DNA of 64,000 nucleotides from Myxococcales bacterium (GCA_019634415.1 JAHQVJ010000041.1:62001-126000), one strand, 5' to 3'; counted from the stretch's first letter, positions 49,905-64,000 are shown. Numbers and translations: made by a program. Notes: generated from the sequence alone by a model not told the origin.

Positions 49905-50666
49905 ATGATCGGGACCACGACCCTGGGTGCGGGAACGCACCCAGTGGTGTTGCTCAACGACTGGATGGGGGACCACCGCAACTACGATGCGGTCCTGCCC
50001 CTGCTGGATCTCGACGCGAACACCTATGTCTTCGCGGATCTGCGGGGCTACGGGCTGTCGCGCACGGTGGCGGGGCACCACACCCTCGAGGAGGCCGCGA
50101 GCGACGTGATCGCCGTGCTCGAGGGTCTCGACGGGCCCGTCACCCTGGTGGGGCACTCCATGTCCAGCCTGGTGGTGCAGCAGGTGGCCGTGCGCGCACG
50201 CACCCTGCTGCGAGGGCTGGTGTTGGTGGCGCCCATCGCTTCCAGCGGCATGCAGGTTCCGCCGGAGGTGGTCCAGTGGCTGCAGGCGGTGGGGCGCGAC
50301 GAGGCGATGCGCGCCGAGCAGCTGGGGCCTCGGTTCGCGGAGCGTCACGGGCCGGGGTGGGCTCGGTTCAAGCTTCAGCGATTCGCACAGTCGGCCGAGC
50401 CGGAGGCCGCTGCCGCCTACGTGCACATGTACGGCACGGAGGCGGTGGTCGGTCCGCTGCCTGCAGATCTGCCCGTGTTGGCGGTGGTGGGGGCAGAGGA
50501 CGACGAGCCGTTCACCCCACAGACGGTGGGCGGATGGTTGCCGGAGCAGTGGCCTGGGTCCACCCTCGTGGTGTGCGCGGCATCGGGCCACTACCCCATG
50601 CAGGAGGAGCCCGTGGCCTTTGCGGCGGCCCTCGACAGCTTCGTGGCGGAGCGCCGGGAGACTTAG
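49905..50666 (+). CDS. Alpha/beta hydrolase
   Basis: 253 residues. Hydrolase fold with the oxyanion/HG-like N-terminal strand (HPVVLLNDWMGDH), nucleophile elbow GHSMSS (Ser about 86), an acidic residue in VVGAEDDEPF and the catalytic His in ASGHYPMQEEP. All triad residues are in place. Substrate unknown; the sequence is closest in feel to esterase/non-haem haloperoxidase types. It is preceded by GAAGGGGG and ends with a 4-base tail-to-tail overlap with the PARG-like gene. Confidence 0.9.
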   Translation: MIGTTTLGAGTHPVVLLNDWMGDHRNYDAVLPLLDLDANTYVFADLRGYGLSRTVAGHHTLEEAASDVIAVLEGLDGPVTLVGHSMSSLVVQQVAVRARTLLRGLVLVAPIASSGMQVPPEVVQWLQAVGRDEAMRAEQLGPRFAERHGPGWARFKLQRFAQSAEPEAAAAYVHMYGTEAVVGPLPADLPVLAVVGAEDDEPFTPQTVGGWLPEQWPGSTLVVCAASGHYPMQEEPVAFAAALDSFVAERRET

Positions 50667-51715: not shown

Positions 51716-52801
51716 ATGATGTTCCGTGCCTTCGTCGCAATCGCCTGCATGCTCGGATTGGGCTGCGTGGAGACCACGGCTCCCGCAGGGCCCGGCTGTG
51801 CCGGCTGTCATGGCTCCGAGGCCAATGCTGCGCCTCCGTCCGGCCTCGGTGGGATCGACGATCGCAGTACGCGCTCGGTGGGGGCGCACCAAGAGCACCT
51901 CGCTCCACAACGGGCCGTGCCGGTCGAGTGTGATGCGTGCCACCTCGTGCCCGAGGCCCTGAACGACGAGGGGCACATCGACGATGGGTGGCCGGCCGAG
52001 GTGAAGTGGGCCGACCTCTCGGTGACGGGCGGGGCGAGCACTCCCTTCGACGTGGAGGGGCAGACCTGTACCGTGTACTGCCACGGAACCACCACCACGG
52101 GCGGCGAGGATCCCCGCCCCACCTGGACGGCGGGGCCCGAGGCTGCCCGCTGCAGCAGCTGTCACGGCAACCCGCCGCCCGCGCCGCATCCTGCCGACGA
52201 CCAATGCCTGATGTGTCACACCCGCGATGCGGCCACGGAGCACGTGGATGGGGTGGTGCAGCTGCGAAACCCCGAGGGCGGCGAGCCCTGTGGGGGATGC
52301 CACGGCGAAGGGCCCGACGATCTCTGGCCGCCGCCCGACGTGTCGGGGAACACCGAGACCACCACCAACGGGGTGGGGGCCCACGAGGCCCACCGCACCG
52401 GAAATGGTCGCGCGGCGCCCACGGCCTGCTCGAACTGCCACCTGATCCCGCTGACGGTCAACGACAAGGGGCACCGCGATCCGGCGCCTGCGGAGGTGGT
52501 GTTCGCGGGCGTGGCCACCATGGAGAGCGCGACGCCGGTGTGGAACGGTGGCACCTGCTCCGAGACCTACTGCCACACCGCGGGTGACGCGGTCGTGGCG
52601 GGTGGAGCGGTGCCGGAGCCCCTGTGGCGAGCGGTGGACGGCACGCAGGTGGGCTGTGCCGCCTGTCACGGCAACCCGCCGCCGCTGCCACACCCTGCGG
52701 TGGCCGCCTGTGGTCAGTGCCACCCCAACGCCACCGCCGACGGCTCTGGCTTCACCCTTCCCCTTCAGCACGTGGACGGCACCGTGGACGTCGTTCAGTG
52801 A
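51716..52801 (+). CDS. Deca-haem c-type cytochrome lipoprotein (CxxCH plus CX3CH and CX4CH)
   Basis: 361 residues. The N-terminus is a lipoprotein signal (AIACMLGLGC), then ten putative haem-binding motifs: eight CxxCH, one CX3CH (CTVYCH) and one CX4CH (CSETYCH). The pattern of two CxxCH plus a wider motif within each repeat resembles the Geobacter 'CxxxxCH...CxxCH' domain found in outer-membrane cytochromes. It is therefore probably an outer-membrane, surface-facing electron carrier. Two ATGs at 51716/51719. The stop overlaps the GTG of the beta-barrel gene (GTGA), and that barrel gene overlaps a third gene the same way, so the three are one translational unit. Confidence 0.9.
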   Translation: MMFRAFVAIACMLGLGCVETTAPAGPGCAGCHGSEANAAPPSGLGGIDDRSTRSVGAHQEHLAPQRAVPVECDACHLVPEALNDEGHIDDGWPAEVKWADLSVTGGASTPFDVEGQTCTVYCHGTTTTGGEDPRPTWTAGPEAARCSSCHGNPPPAPHPADDQCLMCHTRDAATEHVDGVVQLRNPEGGEPCGGCHGEGPDDLWPPPDVSGNTETTTNGVGAHEAHRTGNGRAAPTACSNCHLIPLTVNDKGHRDPAPAEVVFAGVATMESATPVWNGGTCSETYCHTAGDAVVAGGAVPEPLWRAVDGTQVGCAACHGNPPPLPHPAVAACGQCHPNATADGSGFTLPLQHVDGTVDVVQ

Positions 52802-54159
52802 GCCTGCTCTGTTGGTCCACGCTCGCGCTCGCGGGCAGCCTCGACGCTCAGGTGGCCGCGGACGTGCTCGCAGCGGGCTCTCGGTCGGTGTCTCCGGCTG
52901 CAGGTCAGCCCGAAGGCATGGGAGCGGCGGACGTGGGCGTGCGGATCCGCGGGGAGCTGCTCGAGGTCGACGACGCGCTGCGGATCAACGTGGACTACCG
53001 CGGACGTCAGCCCGTCGCCGGGGCCTTCGACAACGAAGCGCTCCACCTGGTCTATCGGGCCGAGGTCGCCTACCACCTGCCGAAGACCGAGCTCGCCGTG
53101 GGCCGGTTCCTGGCGCCCTCCGTGCTCTGGCTGCCGATGGACGGGGTGCGTGGCACCTACCGAGACGCCGGATCCTGGGTCACCGCCTATGCGGGGCGTC
53201 GTGCGATCACGCTGTCGCGTCGAAACGTAGCACCTGCCACCTGGCTGCCGGCGTTCGGGGCCGAGGTGGGGCGCACCACCGAGGCCTACAGTGCGCAGAT
53301 CCAGGGCACGCTGGCGGGCGATCAGGTCCTGCTGGGGAACGCAGACGACGAGGTGGTGCAAGACGTCACCGGTGGGGCTGGGCTGGTGCGCGTCGCCGTG
53401 ACGGCCCCTCGCACGGTGTCGCTGGGGGCGCAGGCGAGCGTGGCCAACCAGGTCACCTACGCTCTGGGTGCTCAGGTGGGCGAGCTGCAGGCCACGGTCG
53501 ACGTGCTGTCGCTGTACAACACCATGGGTTGGGTCGCGTGGCGTCCGAGCAAGGGCGCTCGAGTGGATCTGGATGCCGTACATCAGCGTGCCGCACTGTC
53601 GGCGGACGCGGCCTCCCTTGGTCTGGATCTGGTGGACCCCTCGTTCTCGGACGTGCGGCTGCGCGGTGCCTTCGGGCGCGGGGATCGTGGGTTCGTGCGT
53701 CCGGACCTGAGGCTGCGGCTGCGCGCATCGCGCACCGAGGTCCGCTACGGGGGCGGGTTCGAGCTGCACGACGCGAGGCTTGTCGGCCCGTATCTGCGGG
53801 GGCGGCTGTGGCTGGAGCACGTGATGGCCGAGAACCGACCGGCCGCCCTGGATCGCGTGCTGTGGCAGGCGGGGGCGGGCTGGGAGCGAGGGATCGGCAT
53901 GGTGGAGCTGGGAGCCCATGCCGTGGATCGCGCCCTGGGGCCGGTCTCGGCGCGGTCGGCCGATCCCGGCAACCCGACGCAGCCCTTGAGCAGCGAGGAC
54001 CTGGCGCCCTTCGTGCTGGAGGCGCAGAACGTGGCCTACGCTCGGGCACTGCTGGCCGGCACCGTGTGGTTCGCAGGCACCGACGTGGAGGTGAACGTGG
54101 AGGACCGAGAGGTGCGTGCGTTCGTGCAGGTGGGCCTGCGGGGAGCGTCCCGTTGGTGA
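52798..54159 (+). CDS. Outer-membrane beta-barrel protein (putative porin of a cytochrome conduit)
   Basis: 453 residues. GTG start overlaps the upstream cytochrome stop. A short signal (LLCWSTLALAG) leads into strand-rich sequence with alternating hydrophobic residues, and the protein ends in an aromatic residue (RGASRW) as outer-membrane barrels usually do. There are no CxxCH motifs. In known porin-cytochrome systems a barrel of this kind holds a periplasmic and an extracellular cytochrome in contact; its place between two multihaem cytochromes suggests the same here. No sequence similarity to MtrB or OmbB was tested. Confidence 0.78.
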   Translation: MSLLCWSTLALAGSLDAQVAADVLAAGSRSVSPAAGQPEGMGAADVGVRIRGELLEVDDALRINVDYRGRQPVAGAFDNEALHLVYRAEVAYHLPKTELAVGRFLAPSVLWLPMDGVRGTYRDAGSWVTAYAGRRAITLSRRNVAPATWLPAFGAEVGRTTEAYSAQIQGTLAGDQVLLGNADDEVVQDVTGGAGLVRVAVTAPRTVSLGAQASVANQVTYALGAQVGELQATVDVLSLYNTMGWVAWRPSKGARVDLDAVHQRAALSADAASLGLDLVDPSFSDVRLRGAFGRGDRGFVRPDLRLRLRASRTEVRYGGGFELHDARLVGPYLRGRLWLEHVMAENRPAALDRVLWQAGAGWERGIGMVELGAHAVDRALGPVSARSADPGNPTQPLSSEDLAPFVLEAQNVAYARALLAGTVWFAGTDVEVNVEDREVRAFVQVGLRGASRW

Positions 54160-55160
54160 GACTCTGGCTCGCCGCGATGCTTGCATGGTGCCTGGCAGCG
54201 CCTGCTTCGGCGCAAGAGGTGCACCGGGCGCTCACCGACGTGGCCTGCACCCACTGCCACGAGGATCCGCACCCGGTGGAGGGCAAGCCGTGCGTGGAGT
54301 GCCATGCGCTCGAGGCCTGGGTTCCCTCCGCCTTCACCCTGGCTGATCATCGCTCCACCTCGTTCCCGTTGGAGGGTCGCCACACCGACGCCGCGTGCAG
54401 TGGCTGTCACATCGGCGCCCGCCTCACGGGTCTCCCCACGGAGTGCGCGGGATGCCACGTCGACCGGCATCGAGGCAAGCTGGGCGACGACTGCACCGCC
54501 TGCCACTCCGTGCAGGGCTTTCGGCCCGTGCCGGAGTTCGATCACGATCTGCGCACGAGCTTCTCCCTGACGGGTCATCACAAGGGGGTCTCCTGCACGG
54601 CGTGTCACGAGGGCAGCAACGGCATGTCGATGCGCATGGTGATGGAGCCCACCTGCGTCACCTGCCACCAGCGCGGTCACGGCGCCTTCGGCTCCCCCTG
54701 CGAGACGTGCCACGAGTCCGAGGACGCCACGTTCCCGGTTGCGCGCAAGGGGTTCGATCACCGCCCCACGTCGTTCCCCTTGGAGCGGCGCCACAAGAAC
54801 CTTCCCTGCAAGTCGTGCCACAGCGTGGGGCAGACGCGACCGCCCCAGCCGCAGTGCCGCAGCTGCCACACCGACCAGCACGCGGGCCAGCTGGGCACCA
54901 CGTGCAGCGACTGCCACCGTCCCGATCGGTGGAACCTGGTGCGCTTCGATCACGATCAGTCGGGGTGGGCGCTGCGGGGCCGCCACTTCGTGACGCCCTG
55001 CGGCCAGTGCCACACGGCCAACCGCTGGATCGGGCTGCGGACGGAGTGCTACACCTGCCATCAGCCGGATCTGGTTCGGGCGCCCATCATGGTCCCCGCC
55101 CACGCCAACCCGCTGTCGAGCTGCGACGACTGTCACGGGCTGTGGTCCTGGGGCCTGTAG
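54156..55160 (+). CDS. 14-haem periplasmic cytochrome c
   Basis: 334 residues. GTG start overlaps the barrel gene's stop. Signal peptide MLAWCLAAPASA with an AxA cleavage site, then 14 CxxCH motifs (CTHCH first, CDDCH last) with intervening DH.STSFPLEGRH-type repeats, as in NrfB/c7-like multihaem proteins. The repeat 'F.L.G.H....C..CH' places a distal His in each unit, suggesting bis-His haems. It has no lipobox, so it is probably soluble in the periplasm, which fits an inner-side partner of the barrel. Ends 4 bases before the convergent oxidoreductase gene. Confidence 0.92.
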   Translation: MRLWLAAMLAWCLAAPASAQEVHRALTDVACTHCHEDPHPVEGKPCVECHALEAWVPSAFTLADHRSTSFPLEGRHTDAACSGCHIGARLTGLPTECAGCHVDRHRGKLGDDCTACHSVQGFRPVPEFDHDLRTSFSLTGHHKGVSCTACHEGSNGMSMRMVMEPTCVTCHQRGHGAFGSPCETCHESEDATFPVARKGFDHRPTSFPLERRHKNLPCKSCHSVGQTRPPQPQCRSCHTDQHAGQLGTTCSDCHRPDRWNLVRFDHDQSGWALRGRHFVTPCGQCHTANRWIGLRTECYTCHQPDLVRAPIMVPAHANPLSSCDDCHGLWSWGL

Positions 55161-55164
55161 TCGC

Positions 55165-56493
55165 CTAGGTGTTGGCGGGAGCGTAGAGCTCGCCCTTGAA
55201 GGTGGCGATCTCGATGCCAGCGTCCTGCAGGAACTTGGTGGGAAGCACCCCGCCGATGAGCACGATCACGCGGTCGTTGTCCAGCGTCATCGGCTGTCCC
55301 TCGACCGTCAGCAGCACGGTGCGCTCGTCGATCTCCGAGACCTTGGCTTCGAGCAGCAAGCGCACGCGCCCAGCCTCCACGGCCTCGTCGAGCCGCTTCT
55401 GGTTCTTGGCCTTGATGCGGTCGAAGACCCGCTTGCGGTGGGCCAGGTGGACGTGGGCGCCGGCTTCTCCCAAGGAGATGGCCGCCTCCACGCCCGCATC
55501 GCCACCTCCCACCACCAGCGTGCTCTTGCCTGCGTAGTCCTCGGCATCGATGAGTCGGTAGACGACCTTCCCTCGCCCCTCTCCGGGGACCCCCAGCTTG
55601 CGGGGCGTGCCGCGCCGCCCCAAGGCCAGCACCACCCGCTGCGCCCGGAACGCACCCACCGAGGTGCGCAGGGTGAACACCTCGTCGGCGCCGCGCTCCA
55701 CCTGATCCACTCGAACGCCCGTACGCACCGACAGGCCCGTCTTGTCGATGATCTGGTGCCAGTGGTCCAGCAGGGCTTCCTTGCGCACCTCCGTGACGTG
55801 GAGCCGGCCATACAGGGGCAGGTCCACCGGGCGCGTCATCACGATCTTGTGGCGCGGGTACTGCAGCACCGTGCCGCCGATGGTCTCCTGGTCCACGACG
55901 ACGAAGTCCAGCCCTGCCTCCATGGCCGACAGGGCCGCGGCGATCCCGGCAGGGCCCGCTCCCACGATGATCAGCTGGTGCACGCCCTTGGTGGGGGGGG
56001 GAGGGGCAGCGCGGATCGAGTCGAGGCACTGCATCGCCTGCGTCATGGCGTTGTAGACCAGGCCCATGCCGCCCAGCTCGCCGACGACGTACAGGCCTGG
56101 CACGCTCGTCTGGAAGTCCGACGCCACCATGGGGATGTCCACACCGCGCTTGGCCGTGCCCAAGACCAACTCGATGGCGTCCACCGGACAGGCGCGCATG
56201 CACTCTCCGTGACCGATGCACGAGGTGGGGTTGACCACCGTGGCCTTGCCGTCGAGCACCGCGAGCACGTCTCCCTCGGGACAAACGCGCACGCACGAGC
56301 CCGAGCCGATGCAGCGATCCAGGTGGATCCGCGGATGCAGGCTCGCGGGTTGCGCACCCTTGGCCAGCGCGTCGGCGTGATCGCGCTGACCCTTCGACTC
56401 CAGTCGCTGGCTGCGCACGAAGCTCGCGATGGTCAGGACTCCGATCCCCACGAGACCGCCGAACAACACGCATCCCAGCGCTTCGATCACCAT
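55165..56493 (-). CDS. Membrane-anchored Fe-S/flavin oxidoreductase (YpdA/thioredoxin-reductase-like)
   Basis: 442 residues. One N-terminal hydrophobic helix (about 5-26), then a ferredoxin-like domain with two cluster motifs that lack the usual second Cys (CIGSGSCVRVCP, 61-72; CIGHGECMRACP, 92-103), a linker, and from about 172 a two-Rossmann flavoprotein: FAD site IIVGAGPAGIAAAL, NAD(P) site LVVGGGDAGVEAAIS. It has no redox CxxC of true thioredoxin reductase; YpdA-like enzymes share this. It could take electrons from NAD(P)H and pass them to membrane partners; the divergent cytochrome-b-like gene 56 bases away is the natural candidate. The ATG at 56493 gives the best anchor. Confidence 0.85.
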   Translation of the reverse strand: MVIEALGCVLFGGLVGIGVLTIASFVRSQRLESKGQRDHADALAKGAQPASLHPRIHLDRCIGSGSCVRVCPEGDVLAVLDGKATVVNPTSCIGHGECMRACPVDAIELVLGTAKRGVDIPMVASDFQTSVPGLYVVGELGGMGLVYNAMTQAMQCLDSIRAAPPPPTKGVHQLIIVGAGPAGIAAALSAMEAGLDFVVVDQETIGGTVLQYPRHKIVMTRPVDLPLYGRLHVTEVRKEALLDHWHQIIDKTGLSVRTGVRVDQVERGADEVFTLRTSVGAFRAQRVVLALGRRGTPRKLGVPGEGRGKVVYRLIDAEDYAGKSTLVVGGGDAGVEAAISLGEAGAHVHLAHRKRVFDRIKAKNQKRLDEAVEAGRVRLLLEAKVSEIDERTVLLTVEGQPMTLDNDRVIVLIGGVLPTKFLQDAGIEIATFKGELYAPANT

Positions 56494-56549
56494 GTCGCTT
56501 CCACCTGCTCCGACCGCCGCGCCCAAGGTACCGCACCCAGCCGACGGCG

Positions 56550-57344
56550 ATGCGCTATCTTCTCGGTGACGTGCGATGGGCCTTGCCGGCGTTGTATCTG
56601 TCCCTGTTGGGCATCGAGGCCGCCGTGCTGGTGCCCACCTACCTGGTGGTCCGACCTGCCTCCGGCTCGGTGTTCAATGCGGCCGTGGGCACCTTTGCGA
56701 TCCTGTGCATGATCGGCATGCTGGTGTACTCGCTGGCGCGCCGCAGCCGTCGGCTGCGCCGGATCATGCGCCTGTCGCTGTGGCTCCACCTGCACATCTT
56801 CCTGGGTCTACAGGGGATCCTGTTGGCCTACGTGCACTGCCTGCCCCTGTTCTGGCGCCCCGGGCCACCCACGCTGCTCAACCCGGGCATGCTCAATCTG
56901 TATGCGATGACCATCGTGTTCCTGTCGGGGCTGTTCGGTCGCTACCTGTTCGCCCAGGTGCCCACCACGGTGGGCGGCCAGCACCTCACGATCGAGGCCC
57001 TGGATGCCGAGCTCGCCGAGCTGAACCAGCCCGTTCCCGCCGAGGTGAGCGCCTTGTGGGCCGATCCGCCGGGGGCCTCGGGGTTCTCGGGGGTGGTCAC
57101 CGCGGGCCGTCATCGGCGTCGAGCGCTGCGACAGCTGGCCGCCCTCGAGCTGTCGCCCGACGTGTATGCGCTGGCCGAGCGACGGCTCGGGCTGATGCAC
57201 AAGAAGGCGGCCCTGACCAGCGCGCGCCGCCTGTTCAGCACCTGGATCTTCCTGCACCGTCCCATCGCCGGTGCCATGTACCTGATCACGGCCGTGCACG
57301 TCGTGTTGAGCTTGTTGTTCACTCCTTCCTTGGGGCTGATCTGA
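56550..57344 (+). CDS. Cytochrome-b-like integral membrane protein
   Basis: 264 residues with about five hydrophobic helices. Histidines sit inside or at the edges of helices (LSLWLHLHIFLGLQ, AYVHCLPLF, FLHRPIAGAMYLI, AVHVVLSLLF), as in haem-b-binding proteins of the NrfD/cytochrome b561/ferric-reductase classes. Between helices 3 and 4 there is a soluble loop of about 100 residues. The stop and the ATG of the next gene overlap by one base (TGATG). It is probably the inner-membrane electron carrier of the cluster, linking the oxidoreductase to the periplasmic cytochromes. Confidence 0.78.
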   Translation: MRYLLGDVRWALPALYLSLLGIEAAVLVPTYLVVRPASGSVFNAAVGTFAILCMIGMLVYSLARRSRRLRRIMRLSLWLHLHIFLGLQGILLAYVHCLPLFWRPGPPTLLNPGMLNLYAMTIVFLSGLFGRYLFAQVPTTVGGQHLTIEALDAELAELNQPVPAEVSALWADPPGASGFSGVVTAGRHRRRALRQLAALELSPDVYALAERRLGLMHKKAALTSARRLFSTWIFLHRPIAGAMYLITAVHVVLSLLFTPSLGLI

Positions 57345-58522
57345 TGCATCGAGGCCGTCTGGCGCTGCTCGCGCTCCTCCTCGTGGGGCTGATGGCGGGG
57401 AGCTGGCGCACCATGATGGCGCCTGGTCACACCAACCGAGCCCACGCCTCGTTCGCGGGCAGCTGCGACAACTGCCACCTCGTCTTCGACGGCGTGCCCG
57501 ACGAGCGCTGTCTGAACTGCCACCTCGCCATCGCGAACCGAGAGTTCGACGGGCGCGGCTTTCACGCCACGGTGGCCGACCAGGCCTGCATCGACTGCCA
57601 CACCGATCATGGGGGCCCGGACGGCCCCCTCACGCGCAAGAGCGCGTTGGCCGACTTCGATCACGGGCTGTCGGGGTTCGGCCTCGAGGGTCGCCACAGC
57701 ACGCTGCGCTGTGAGTCGTGCCACCGGGCGCCGCTGGAGGCGATGCAGCCGGAGTGTGGCGAGTGTCACGAGGATGCGCACACCAGCGCGCTGGGACCCG
57801 ACTGTGTGGCCTGCCACGTGGCCCAGGGATGGCGACGCCAGCTCAAGACGCTCGAGGCCCACGTCATCGAGACCACCGGCGGGCACGAGGGACTGGCCTG
57901 CGAGGACTGCCATCTGCACGGTGAGAACCTGGATGCGTCGGTGGTCTGTGCGAACTGCCACGATCAGTCCCATGGCGGCACACAGTCCGATTGTGCGCTG
58001 TGCCACCAGGTCTCGGGCTTCGCGCCTGCCGAGTTCAACCACGGCCCGTGCACCTGCTCCTTTCCTGGCAAGCACCAGACGGTGGAGTGCCTCGCCTGCC
58101 ACGAGAACTTCTCCTTCACCGACACGCCCACGCTGTGCTCGGGCTGCCACACCAAGGACCGCCCCCACGAGCCGCTAGGGGAGTGCAGCCGCTGCCACAC
58201 CGCCTTGTCGTGGTCCGATGGGCGGTTCGATCACGACTCGATCCGCTTCAAGATCCGAGGCGCTCACCTGTCGGTGAGCTGCGATGCGTGCCACGAGACC
58301 CAGTTCCGCGGTGTGCCGAAGGCCTGTGCCGGGTGTCACCAGGAGATGGGCGACGAGGCGCACGGCGATTTCGGGCGCTGCGAGCCGTGCCACACCACGG
58401 CCGGGTTCTCTCCCTCCCGCTTCGACCACGGCAGCGTGGGCTTCCCCCTCACCGGGCGCCACGCCAATGCCCCCTGTCAGTCGTGCCATGCGGAGAAGGT
58501 GGAGGGCTACGAGGGGCGCTGA
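57344..58522 (+). CDS. 16-haem cytochrome c
   Basis: 392 residues. An N-terminal hydrophobic helix (ALLALLLVGLMAG) acts as signal or anchor, then 16 CxxCH motifs, from CDNCH to CQSCH. The repeat style (F..GRH....C..CH) is that of the 14-haem protein upstream, so the two are related by expansion of the same unit. The start overlaps the membrane protein's stop, so the protein is made together with its presumed electron donor. Role: shuttle across the periplasm. Confidence 0.92.
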   Translation: MHRGRLALLALLLVGLMAGSWRTMMAPGHTNRAHASFAGSCDNCHLVFDGVPDERCLNCHLAIANREFDGRGFHATVADQACIDCHTDHGGPDGPLTRKSALADFDHGLSGFGLEGRHSTLRCESCHRAPLEAMQPECGECHEDAHTSALGPDCVACHVAQGWRRQLKTLEAHVIETTGGHEGLACEDCHLHGENLDASVVCANCHDQSHGGTQSDCALCHQVSGFAPAEFNHGPCTCSFPGKHQTVECLACHENFSFTDTPTLCSGCHTKDRPHEPLGECSRCHTALSWSDGRFDHDSIRFKIRGAHLSVSCDACHETQFRGVPKACAGCHQEMGDEAHGDFGRCEPCHTTAGFSPSRFDHGSVGFPLTGRHANAPCQSCHAEKVEGYEGR

Positions 58523-60767: not shown

Positions 60768-61625
60768 ATGACCTACTGGATGTGGCTGGCCGTGCTCTCG
60801 GCCGTGTTCGTCGGGGTGGAGCGCCTGCGCCCGCGCGACCGTCGGGGCTGGTGGCGGCCGGGCCTCGGGCTCGACTTGTTCTATCTGGTGTTCAACGGCC
60901 ACTTCCTGGGAGTGCTGCTCGCCAAGGCCTCGACTCCGCTCGCGGCGTCGCTGGATGCATGGCTCGTCTCCCAGGGGCTGTGGGGCACCTTCCACCTGGC
61001 GGTGATGGCGGACTGGCCTGCGTGGGCGCAGCTCGTACTGGCCCTGCTGGCGGTGGATCTGTTCCACTGGGGCGTGCACAACCTGCTGCATCGCGTGCCC
61101 GCCCTGTGGACGTTCCACAAGGTCCATCACAGCATCGTGCACATGGACTGGATCGGCAGCTTGCGCTTCCACTGGGCCGAGGTGGTGATCTACAAGTCGC
61201 TGACCTACCCACTGCTGGCGTTGCTCGGCGCGTCGGGAGAGGTGCTGTTCGGACTGGCAGTGTTCAACACGGCCGTCGGCCACTTCAACCACGCCAACCT
61301 CGACGTGGGCCTGGGACCGCTGGGCTACGTGCTCAACAACCCCCGCATGCACATCTGGCACCACGTGCACGCCGATGCAGGGCCTCCGCTGCACAACTTC
61401 GGCATCACCTTGAGCCTGTGGGACTACCTGTTCGGCACCGCCCACGTTCCCGATCACCCGCCCGAGCGACTGGCCTTCGACGGCATCGATGGGTTCCCGT
61501 CGACGGTGCCCGGTCAGCTGCTGCACCCGCTGTCGGGGTGGGTGCGACCCGCTAGCGCCGGAACCGATTCTGGCGGATCCAGCGCGCCCGATCCCGTCGG
61601 ATCTGGTGGCGCTGCCCGGCCGTGA
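60768..61625 (+). CDS. Sterol desaturase / fatty acid hydroxylase family protein
   Basis: 285 residues. The eight-histidine di-iron pattern is visible: HWGVHNLLH (about 102-110), HKVHH (117-121), HFNHAN (171-176) and HIWHHVHADAG (197-207), in and between four to five membrane helices. Members of this family insert or remove a hydroxyl/double bond in lipid-like substrates with O2. The last 20 or so residues are Gly/Ser/Pro-rich and overlap the convergent sulfatase gene by 74 bases, so the real end may be a later feature of this genome. Substrate unknown. Confidence 0.92.
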   Translation: MTYWMWLAVLSAVFVGVERLRPRDRRGWWRPGLGLDLFYLVFNGHFLGVLLAKASTPLAASLDAWLVSQGLWGTFHLAVMADWPAWAQLVLALLAVDLFHWGVHNLLHRVPALWTFHKVHHSIVHMDWIGSLRFHWAEVVIYKSLTYPLLALLGASGEVLFGLAVFNTAVGHFNHANLDVGLGPLGYVLNNPRMHIWHHVHADAGPPLHNFGITLSLWDYLFGTAHVPDHPPERLAFDGIDGFPSTVPGQLLHPLSGWVRPASAGTDSGGSSAPDPVGSGGAARP

Positions 61626-63666
61626 TCGAGTTTCGCGCGAGCTGGAACAGCTCTTGGATCTCGGGATCGTCGGGGGCGTTCTTCGCCAGCGGTCCGATCA
61701 CGCGCACCGCCTCGTAGGCGCGCCACATGTCCACCAAGGCCGTGGTGAGACGCATGCGCACGGGCGCCTGCCAGGGGTCGCGGCGCAGGGCCTCCTTCAT
61801 CTCTTCGATGGCGTCGTCGGGACGCCCGAGCTCCCAGAACACCTCTCCGAGGGTCATGTGGGCCCACGGAGACCACGGGGCACCCTTGAGGCCGAACAGT
61901 GCCTCGTCCAGCGCGGCCTCGAGCTGTCGGTCCTCGAGGAGTAGCTCGGCGCGCACCAGGGCGAGCTCGGGGTGGTCGGGGTAGCGCACCAGGAACTCGG
62001 CGGCGCGATCCTCGGCGAGCTGGATGTCTCCGCGCAGCCGTGCCACCCGTGCTTGGCCGGCCATCGCCTCGGGGCTCGGCTGCTGTGCGAAGGCCTCGTC
62101 GTACCAGTAGCCCGCGTCGACCCAGTCACCGCGTGCGATCCCGATGCCCGCCAGCTGAAGTGCCAGCGTGCTCGAGGGCGCGCGTTGGTACAGCTCGAAG
62201 AAGCCGGTGCGCGCGTCCTCGAGCCGCCCGGAGCGGTGATCGATCTGAGCGTGGATGAGCTTCACGCCGAAGGCGTCGGGCAGGCTGCGATCGAGCTCGT
62301 TGGCCAGCCCCTGGGCATGCAACAGCAAGCCGGCGCCGATGCGCTCTCTCGCCCGCCAGGTGAGGGGAATCGCGTCGATCACCGAGCGCGGATCGACGGT
62401 CCCGGCCTTGGCTGCCGGATCGCCCGCGCCGAGGTAGCCCATGGCCGAGAGCATGGCGAGGGCTTGCGGATCGAGGCTGACCTCGGGTGCCAGCTGCTCG
62501 CCCAACGATCGCTGGTAGCGGTGCAGCCGACGGTCCTTGCGGTGGCCGTCCTGAAGCTTCTCCGTGCGGCGGATCTCGTGTCCGACCATGGCGCCGTAGG
62601 AGCCCCAGGCCCCCTCGACGTAGCGCCCCTCGTCGTTGGTGTAGGCGTAGATGGGAGCGAGCCCGAGGCTGTACTGCCCCGCCAGCGACTCGCTGTAGGC
62701 GAATCCCGATCCCCCGTACCTCAGGTCGCTTCCGTCCATCCCGCGATGTGCGCCGATGCCCGCCAGCTCGAGGAGGGTGGGGGCGATGTCCACGTGGGAG
62801 ACGACGTCGGACAGCTGCTGCCCTGCGGCGAATCCCGGCCCCCGGATGATGAGGGGCACGCGGATGCTGCCGTCGTGGAGCAGGAAGCCGTGCGTGGCCT
62901 CGCCACCCTGGCCCAGGGACTCACCCTGGGGGGCCGTGACCACGACGTAGGAGGCGTCGGCCCAGTAGCGCTCGTCCCAGGCGTCGATGAGGCGCGCCAG
63001 CTGCGCGTCGGCGAAGGCGATCTCGCCATCGTAGGGGTCGTCCAGCTCCGATGCGTAGGGCTCGGGTGGATCGTAGGGCCAGTGTGGATCGAACAGGTGC
63101 ACCCAGGCGAACACCGGTGCGTCGTCGGGTAGTGCGTCGAGGGTTCCCAGGACGTCGTCGATGACCTCGTCCGCCGGACGCTGCTCGCGCCACTGCAGCT
63201 GGCTCGGATTCCCCTCCACGATGGGGTCGTGGTACAGGTCGAACCCCTGATCGAGACCCCAGCGGCGCTGAGTCGTGAAGGAGCTGGTGAACGCCATGGT
63301 GCGGTAGCCGGCTTGGCCGAAGCGCTCGGCCAGGGTGATGGCGTCGGCCGACAGGCGGAAGTCTCCCTCGTTGCGAACCCCGTGGGTGGGCGGCGCCTGT
63401 CCGGTGAAGAGGGTGGCTTGGCTAGGGATCGTCAGCGGGGTGCTGGCGTAGGCCCGCATCCAGGTGGTGCCCGTGGCGGCGAGGCGATCGAGGGTCTTCG
63501 TCTGCCCCTTGTCGTAGCCGTACGCGCCGACCCGATCCGCTCGCGTGGTGTCGATGGTGACGAGCAGGATGGCTGGCTTGGAGCGGGAGACGCCCAACAG
63601 CGCCGTCTCCGGAAAGCAGCAGCCGCCGACCAGCACCAGGATGGCTACCAGCAAGGGTCTCAGCAT
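61552..63666 (-). CDS. Sulfatase-like lipoprotein with TPR domain
   Basis: 704 residues from the ATG at 63666. Lipoprotein signal (LVAILVLVGGC). The alkaline-phosphatase-fold sulfatase domain starts LLVTIDTTRADRVGAYGY (34-51), with metal ligands there and in PVFAWVHLFDPHWPY. The position of the sulfatase formylglycine motif (C/S-x-P-S-R) reads TIPSQ (T79), so a Thr replaces the Cys/Ser, and the enzyme may be a phosphotransferase or phosphatase rather than a sulfatase. The C-terminal third (about 480-690) has TPR repeats such as ALVRAELLLEDRQLEAALDEA. Probably bound to the outer membrane facing the periplasm or surface. Confidence 0.87.
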   Translation of the reverse strand: MLRPLLVAILVLVGGCCFPETALLGVSRSKPAILLVTIDTTRADRVGAYGYDKGQTKTLDRLAATGTTWMRAYASTPLTIPSQATLFTGQAPPTHGVRNEGDFRLSADAITLAERFGQAGYRTMAFTSSFTTQRRWGLDQGFDLYHDPIVEGNPSQLQWREQRPADEVIDDVLGTLDALPDDAPVFAWVHLFDPHWPYDPPEPYASELDDPYDGEIAFADAQLARLIDAWDERYWADASYVVVTAPQGESLGQGGEATHGFLLHDGSIRVPLIIRGPGFAAGQQLSDVVSHVDIAPTLLELAGIGAHRGMDGSDLRYGGSGFAYSESLAGQYSLGLAPIYAYTNDEGRYVEGAWGSYGAMVGHEIRRTEKLQDGHRKDRRLHRYQRSLGEQLAPEVSLDPQALAMLSAMGYLGAGDPAAKAGTVDPRSVIDAIPLTWRARERIGAGLLLHAQGLANELDRSLPDAFGVKLIHAQIDHRSGRLEDARTGFFELYQRAPSSTLALQLAGIGIARGDWVDAGYWYDEAFAQQPSPEAMAGQARVARLRGDIQLAEDRAAEFLVRYPDHPELALVRAELLLEDRQLEAALDEALFGLKGAPWSPWAHMTLGEVFWELGRPDDAIEEMKEALRRDPWQAPVRMRLTTALVDMWRAYEAVRVIGPLAKNAPDDPEIQELFQLARNSITAGQRHQIRRDRARWIRQNRFRR

Positions 63667-63705
63667 GGGCAACGCCTCTGCTCCGCGGCACCGTGGGATA
63701 TGTTG

Positions 63706-63729
63706 AGGCCCGCCTTCGGCTGCGGGCCT
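63706..63729. promoter_or_regulatory. Inverted repeat AGGCCCGC-N8-GCGGGCCT
   Basis: A perfect 8-base GC-rich inverted repeat with an 8-base loop in the divergent gap between the sulfatase-like and cyclic-nucleotide-binding genes. Confidence 0.45.
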
Positions 63730-63742
63730 TCCGGAGTGTGCC

Positions 63743-64000
63743 ATGTCCGAAGAGCTGCACGCCCTGCTCCGCGCAACGGACCTCTTCTCCGCCCTCGATC
63801 CGCCCGCCGTGGCGCGAGTGGCGGAGGTGGGCCGGGTGGAGCACTGGACGAAGGGTGCCGTGGTGCTGGAGGAGGGGGCATTCGGTCCGCGGATGATGGT
63901 GATCCTGCAGGGGAGCGTGGAGATCCTGCGTCGCGATGGCGCTGGGGTCCAGCGGGCCATCACCACTCTATCGTCGGGCGATGTGCTGGGGGAGCTTAGC
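63743..64000 (+). CDS. Cyclic-nucleotide-binding (cNMP/CRP-like) protein, 3' truncated
   Basis: The first 86 residues are present; the gene runs off the end of the window. The cNMP-binding fold is clear: LLRATDLFSALDPPAVARVA, VVLEEGAFGPRMMVILQGSVEILRR, and the start of the phosphate-binding cassette (GDVLGELS). Whether a DNA-binding domain follows cannot be seen. Confidence 0.82.
   Translation, partial: MSEELHALLRATDLFSALDPPAVARVAEVGRVEHWTKGAVVLEEGAFGPRMMVILQGSVEILRRDGAGVQRAITTLSSGDVLGELS

Follow-up and report, generated by a model that had tools for sequence, protein, structure and literature searches.

A predicted PCC3-type porin-cytochrome cluster with a split haem wire and a flavoprotein partner in a probable member of the Myxococcota

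The six-gene locus at 51,716–58,522 of the window, the 64-kb stretch of DNA analysed here, can be assigned from its sequence to the PCC3-type porin-cytochrome clusters, and is not a one-off. It probably encodes an electron conduit of the PCC3 type, which would span the cell envelope from a flavoprotein to a surface lipoprotein and whose cofactors, complex and topology are predicted. Two features are new with respect to the earlier descriptions of PCC3: the haem wire is split, and a flavoprotein is a conserved partner of the cluster.

PCC3 is a widespread candidate system for extracellular electron transfer, with a predicted function. Its periplasmic multihaem cytochromes (MHCs) have a median of 21 haems and about 22–39 residues per haem. 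The class was predicted in 2017 from iron oxidisers, with a predicted role in extracellular electron transfer (He et al., PMC5566968). Four components were described, among them an inner-membrane protein (IMP) of ~300 aa with five transmembrane helices, two WX3HX13H motifs and an SGXXG motif, for which a linkage to quinone was proposed (PMC5566968). The PCC3 genes of S. lithotrophicus showed no induction by Fe(II) (PMC8788666). The descriptions of PCC3 concern Alpha-, Beta- and Gammaproteobacteria, whereas the present locus probably belongs to the Myxococcota, and we found no openly accessible literature that combines "PCC3" with "Myxococcota".

Gene content and assignment to PCC3

All six genes named in an earlier, sequence-only reading of this DNA were recovered as open reading frames, with small coordinate corrections only, and its haem counts of ten, 14 and 16 were borne out by motif counting. 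On the plus strand, a lipoprotein cytochrome c (P0001, 51,716–52,801) is followed by an outer-membrane beta-barrel or porin (P0002, 52,798–54,159) and a 14-haem periplasmic cytochrome (P0003, 54,156–55,160), the latter two with GTG starts. These three genes are chained by GTGA stop/start overlaps at 52,798–52,801 and 54,156–54,159. A second plus-strand group encodes a five-helix inner-membrane cytochrome b of the PCC3 IMP family (P0005, 56,550–57,344) and a 16-haem cytochrome (P0006, 57,344–58,522), joined by a TGATG overlap at 57,342–57,346; both kinds of overlap had been claimed and are confirmed in the sequence, from which the fixed ratio of products claimed along with them does not follow. 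Between the two groups, on the minus strand, lies the flavoprotein gene (P0004, 55,165–56,493), for which the ATG at 56,493 is the most plausible start. The window has 39 matches to the haem-motif pattern TGY-N6-TGYCAY, where 4.6 would be expected and 100 shuffles gave nine at most; all but one of these matches fall within the three cytochrome genes.

The DNA comes from a fragmented draft assembly in 254 contigs, with a completeness of 82% and a contamination of 5%. Its closest named relatives in a flavoprotein-family scan of named genomes are Myxococcota MAGs. Outside the cluster, a minus-strand gene at 50,666–51,643 matches the poly(ADP-ribose) glycohydrolase catalytic domain (PF05028, E 2e-10) and appears to be an unrelated neighbour, and a second one at 61,555–63,966 encodes a sulfatase domain fused to TPR repeats.

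The IMP, with 264 aa and five helices, carries both WX3HX13H motifs (W78-H82-H96 and W232-H236-H250) and the SGXXG motif (S126-G-x-x-G-R131), and these residues are invariant or nearly so in two alignments of 73 and 42 members. Its AF2 model (pLDDT 90.6) consists of five long helices with two HX13H pairs. The conservation of these signatures and their agreement with the PCC3 description support the reading of the locus as a conduit. A Foldseek search with the model returned no significant match (SpNOX, prob 0.38, E 1.4), and searches of PDB sequences with the IMP and with an IMP profile gave nothing meaningful. The large periplasmic MHC of the class is represented jointly by the 16- and 14-haem proteins. 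Furthermore, Amphritea atlantica, given as a PCC3 example with 63- and 21-haem MHCs (PMC5566968), was recovered with the same two cytochromes (locus L093) by the flavoprotein-family scan of named genomes, which supports the assignment.

The barrel was modelled with AF2 together with four homologues (pLDDT 68, pTM 0.60; moderate confidence). The model is almost all beta, with about 22 strands and a C-terminal Trp, and its best Foldseek matches are the outer-membrane barrels FimD, AlgE, PfeA and maltoporin (E down to 3e-8). The homologues, 31–35% identical, occupy the same position in the four closest relatives of the locus (L057–L060). Searches for Pfam and NCBIfam families gave no match and those of PDB sequences no meaningful one, and a sequence search of 63 genomes of the order returned its own copy and one marginal match only, which we ascribe to barrels diverging too fast. 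Neither of the outcomes that the sequence-only reading had named as fatal was found: structure prediction gives an outer-membrane beta-barrel, and the neighbouring genes are co-conserved in relatives, so that the gene order is not unique to this genome. In outline, the trans-envelope reading holds. The lipoprotein has a lipobox (PS51257, VAIACMLGLGC) and ten haem motifs (eight CX2CH, one CX3CH and one CX4CH) in cytochrome domains of the GSu_C4xC__C2xCH type (CxxxxCH/CxxCH; TIGR01904, E 5e-24); it is a candidate for the extracellular MHC of PCC3, with a predicted location at the cell surface.

The locus shares with PCC3 (PMC5566968; Gallionellaceae survey, PMC10734462) the porin, a putative extracellular MHC, the IMP with its motifs, and a large periplasmic MHC with a low residue-per-haem ratio, here about 24. 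It differs in that the periplasmic wire is split into 16 and 14 haems, the ten-haem lipoprotein has CX3CH and CX4CH motifs, and the barrel is about 450 aa long, with fewer strands than most PCC3 porins, which have up to 42. The flavoprotein is likewise not listed in the descriptions of either PMC5566968 or PMC10734462. MtrCAB and MtoAB follow the same logic of barrel, periplasmic wire and surface cytochrome, but differ in haem numbers, and the present cluster has no CymA-type quinol dehydrogenase. We rejected membership of Mtr/Mto on the lack of an MtrB/PioB family match of the barrel in Pfam and NCBIfam; a search of the genome for MtrC/MtrF domains gave one sub-threshold match only. Compared by description, Pcc (OmbB-OmaB-OmcB) also joins a porin to a periplasmic cytochrome of 12–14 haems and is known in a myxobacterium, but the pcc of Anaeromyxobacter (PMC4245776) is a two-gene cluster that lacks a surface cytochrome, an IMP and a flavoprotein.

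The sequence-only reading had taken Mtr and Pcc as its reference systems; the relevant known class is PCC3 (PMC5566968). Seen against this class, the oxidoreductase and the 16-haem protein are not the novel arm that they had been taken for, as PCC3 clusters of several phyla have the oxidoreductase beside them and the 16-haem protein corresponds to the N-terminal half of a PCC3 periplasmic cytochrome. Nor is extracellular electron transfer as little described in myxobacteria as had been stated, porin-cytochrome genes of the myxobacterium Anaeromyxobacter having been reported in 2014 (PMC4245776).

A 30-haem cytochrome in two pieces

Alignment shows that the 16- and 14-haem cytochromes each correspond to one half of a 30-haem periplasmic cytochrome. 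The four closest relatives (L057–L060; flavoprotein identity 60–65%) have this cytochrome as a single protein, to which the 16-haem protein aligns over haems 1–16 (46–52% identity) and the 14-haem protein over haems 17–30 (46–48%). The spacings between haem motifs correspond one for one between the window and L057 (window/L057 where they differ), both in the first half (15,26,41,15,16,32,16,15,32,16,16,(32/34),(15/17),18,32) and in the second ((15/16),35,16,16,(34/33),(20/21),(15/16),(36/38),(16/15),16,32,16,(25/24)). Both proteins are multihaem cytochromes of the c7/c3 type, with 24.5 residues per haem in the 16-haem and 23.9 in the 14-haem protein.

The N-terminal half has a hydrophobic N-terminus that would anchor it, and its gene overlaps that of the cytochrome b, whereas the C-terminal half has its own signal peptide and is encoded by a gene overlapping the barrel gene. 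This gene coupling and the N-terminal signals would place the former at the inner membrane and the latter at the barrel, and suggest that the wire is oriented with the end of haems 1–16 facing the inner membrane and that of haems 17–30 facing the barrel. A naturally split wire may in this way indicate which end of a giant cytochrome faces which membrane. The same features make it unlikely that the split is an artefact of assembly. In L058–L060 the region between haems 16 and 17 includes a hydrophobic stretch that looks like the remnant of a signal peptide, and hence the fused 30-haem form may be derived from two genes.

The flavoprotein and its linkage to the IMP

The flavoprotein has an N-terminal transmembrane helix, two [4Fe-4S] motifs and FAD/NAD(P) domains. 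Its nearest PDB sequences are YpdA/Bdr and thioredoxin reductases, with which it shares the two-domain FAD/NAD(P) fold and from which it differs by the added helix and Fe-S motifs and by lacking the redox CxxC. Its cysteines are confined to positions 8, 61, 67, 71, 92, 98, 102 and 156, leaving no CxxC in the FAD/NAD part, and among 135 members of the family such a motif was found in one. It is therefore not a disulfide reductase, and identity as a thioredoxin or bacillithiol disulfide reductase was rejected. Six Fe-S cysteines are invariant across the 133 alignable relatives. The second-ligand position, Ser64 in motif I and His95 in motif II, is variable in the former (Cys in 80, Ser in 44, Thr in seven) and His in 131 of the 133 in the latter, and this near-invariant His suggests a His-ligated second cluster. 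Arg353 is conserved in 133 of the 135 members and Arg359 in 131; both presumably lie at about the position of the NADPH-phosphate arginines of thioredoxin reductases.

In PCC3 clusters the flavoprotein recurs widely as a fifth component. Among 80 flavoprotein-ascertained loci of named genomes, 66 contain an IMP, in 58 within 2 kb. Conversely, all 34 gammaproteobacterial loci ascertained by the IMP have a multihaem gene and 27 a flavoprotein; among the other seven, several loci are truncated at the end of a contig. In the Myxococcota, 27 of 40 IMP loci have the flavoprotein (one, L190, doubtful). The two proteins are also fused, in 11 loci of the Myxococcota, ten in the order IMP-flavoprotein and one (L177) in the reverse order; both linkage and fusion are computed from the sequences. 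The neighbourhood of IMP, flavoprotein and multihaem cytochrome is thus found also in the Myxococcota, the Bacteroidota/Ignavibacteriota and other phyla. We found no mention of the flavoprotein in the openly accessible PCC3 papers.

At least eight IMPs of the Myxococcota without a flavoprotein are instead fused to an Fe-S domain, identified by inspection. In L038, L053, L175, L178 and L186 the IMP carries an N-terminal domain like those binding cNMP and a poly-Fe-S domain; cytochromes of 18–30 haems adjoin these fused IMPs in all but L038. As an Fe-S domain is fused where the flavoprotein is missing, the position beside the IMP seems to take a cytoplasmic Fe-S partner.

A gene of 640–730 aa lies 3' of the flavoprotein gene and on the same strand in L093 (11,178–13,235), and similar-sized genes do so in about 22 loci; it is a possible further accessory component. 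An identity of the ~650–700 aa gene following the proteobacterial flavoprotein as the porin was rejected for the one copy inspected, that of Amphritea, which looks like a Sel1/ankyrin-type repeat protein.

Electron route and its direction

The best reading of the locus is a flavocytochrome b, linked to NAD(P)H or to Fe-S, that supplies a predicted trans-envelope haem wire. We infer its cofactors, complex formation, topology and direction as follows. NAD(P)H or a ferredoxin would exchange electrons with the membrane-anchored, cytoplasmic flavoprotein, which would conduct them by way of FAD and two Fe-S clusters to two b haems of the five-helix IMP. These would reduce the 16-haem half of the wire, anchored in the inner membrane, from which electrons would reach the 14-haem half, located beside the outer-membrane barrel or within it, and finally the ten-haem lipoprotein at the surface.

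Such a route resembles that of NADPH oxidases and ferric reductases (FRD), in which a cytoplasmic pyridine-nucleotide flavoprotein feeds a membrane domain that holds two haems and has HX13H pairs, and electrons leave outwards. Both defining parts, a membrane domain bearing two HX13H pairs and a pyridine-nucleotide flavin domain, are present here, the latter from another flavin fold family. The present system differs by a thioredoxin reductase-like flavin domain with Fe-S clusters, by a haem wire as acceptor, and by an IMP below the FRD cut-off (PF01794, E 0.058; four of 42 relatives at E<0.01).

The membrane potential would assist outward flow from NAD(P)H, as in NADPH oxidases, and would act against flow inwards to NAD(P)+. 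RuBisCO, the one enzyme looked for, was not found in the 82%-complete genome. For these two reasons we favour outward flow, to an external acceptor as sink, which would serve redox balancing or the reduction of that acceptor and not direct energy conservation. A more tentative proposal, possible though bolder, is that PCC3 in general is a five-component, NAD(P)H-driven flavocytochrome similar to NADPH oxidases and not linked to quinone. With the wire made of two proteins, as here, charge might then be gated at the junction of its inner- and outer-membrane halves. A flavoprotein partner would also link the inner-membrane protein, so far without an assigned function, to a defined enzyme activity that can be assayed.

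The same conduit could instead be linked to quinone and possibly run inwards, in Fe(II) or Mn(II) oxidation, with the flavoprotein acting on the side, for instance in maturation or as a redox sensor. This agrees with the quinone-pool model for PCC3 (PMC5566968), with the many relatives in lineages of iron oxidisers, e.g. Gallionella and Ferrovum, and with the flavoprotein missing from seven of 34 gammaproteobacterial IMP loci, yet we consider it unlikely: flavoprotein and IMP are fused in both orders, another Fe-S domain substitutes where the flavoprotein is missing, and inward flow is further opposed by the RuBisCO result. A multihaem reductase or store of electrons confined to the periplasm or inner membrane, to which the barrel gene would be a chance neighbour, would accord with a surface exposure of the lipoprotein that is a prediction, but is very improbable given a barrel gene that shares four bases with the cytochrome gene on either side and stands beside the multihaem gene in all four of the closest relatives.

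Besides the flavocytochrome-fed conduit proposed above, a second cluster, PCC3-like but diverged, seems to be present in the genome (L035; G000:C121, 3,357–14,467); it is located on a short contig whose GC content is similar, and is possibly a contamination. It encodes cytochromes with 27 and eight haems, a protein of ~480 aa, a flavoprotein, an IMP and a ten-haem protein.
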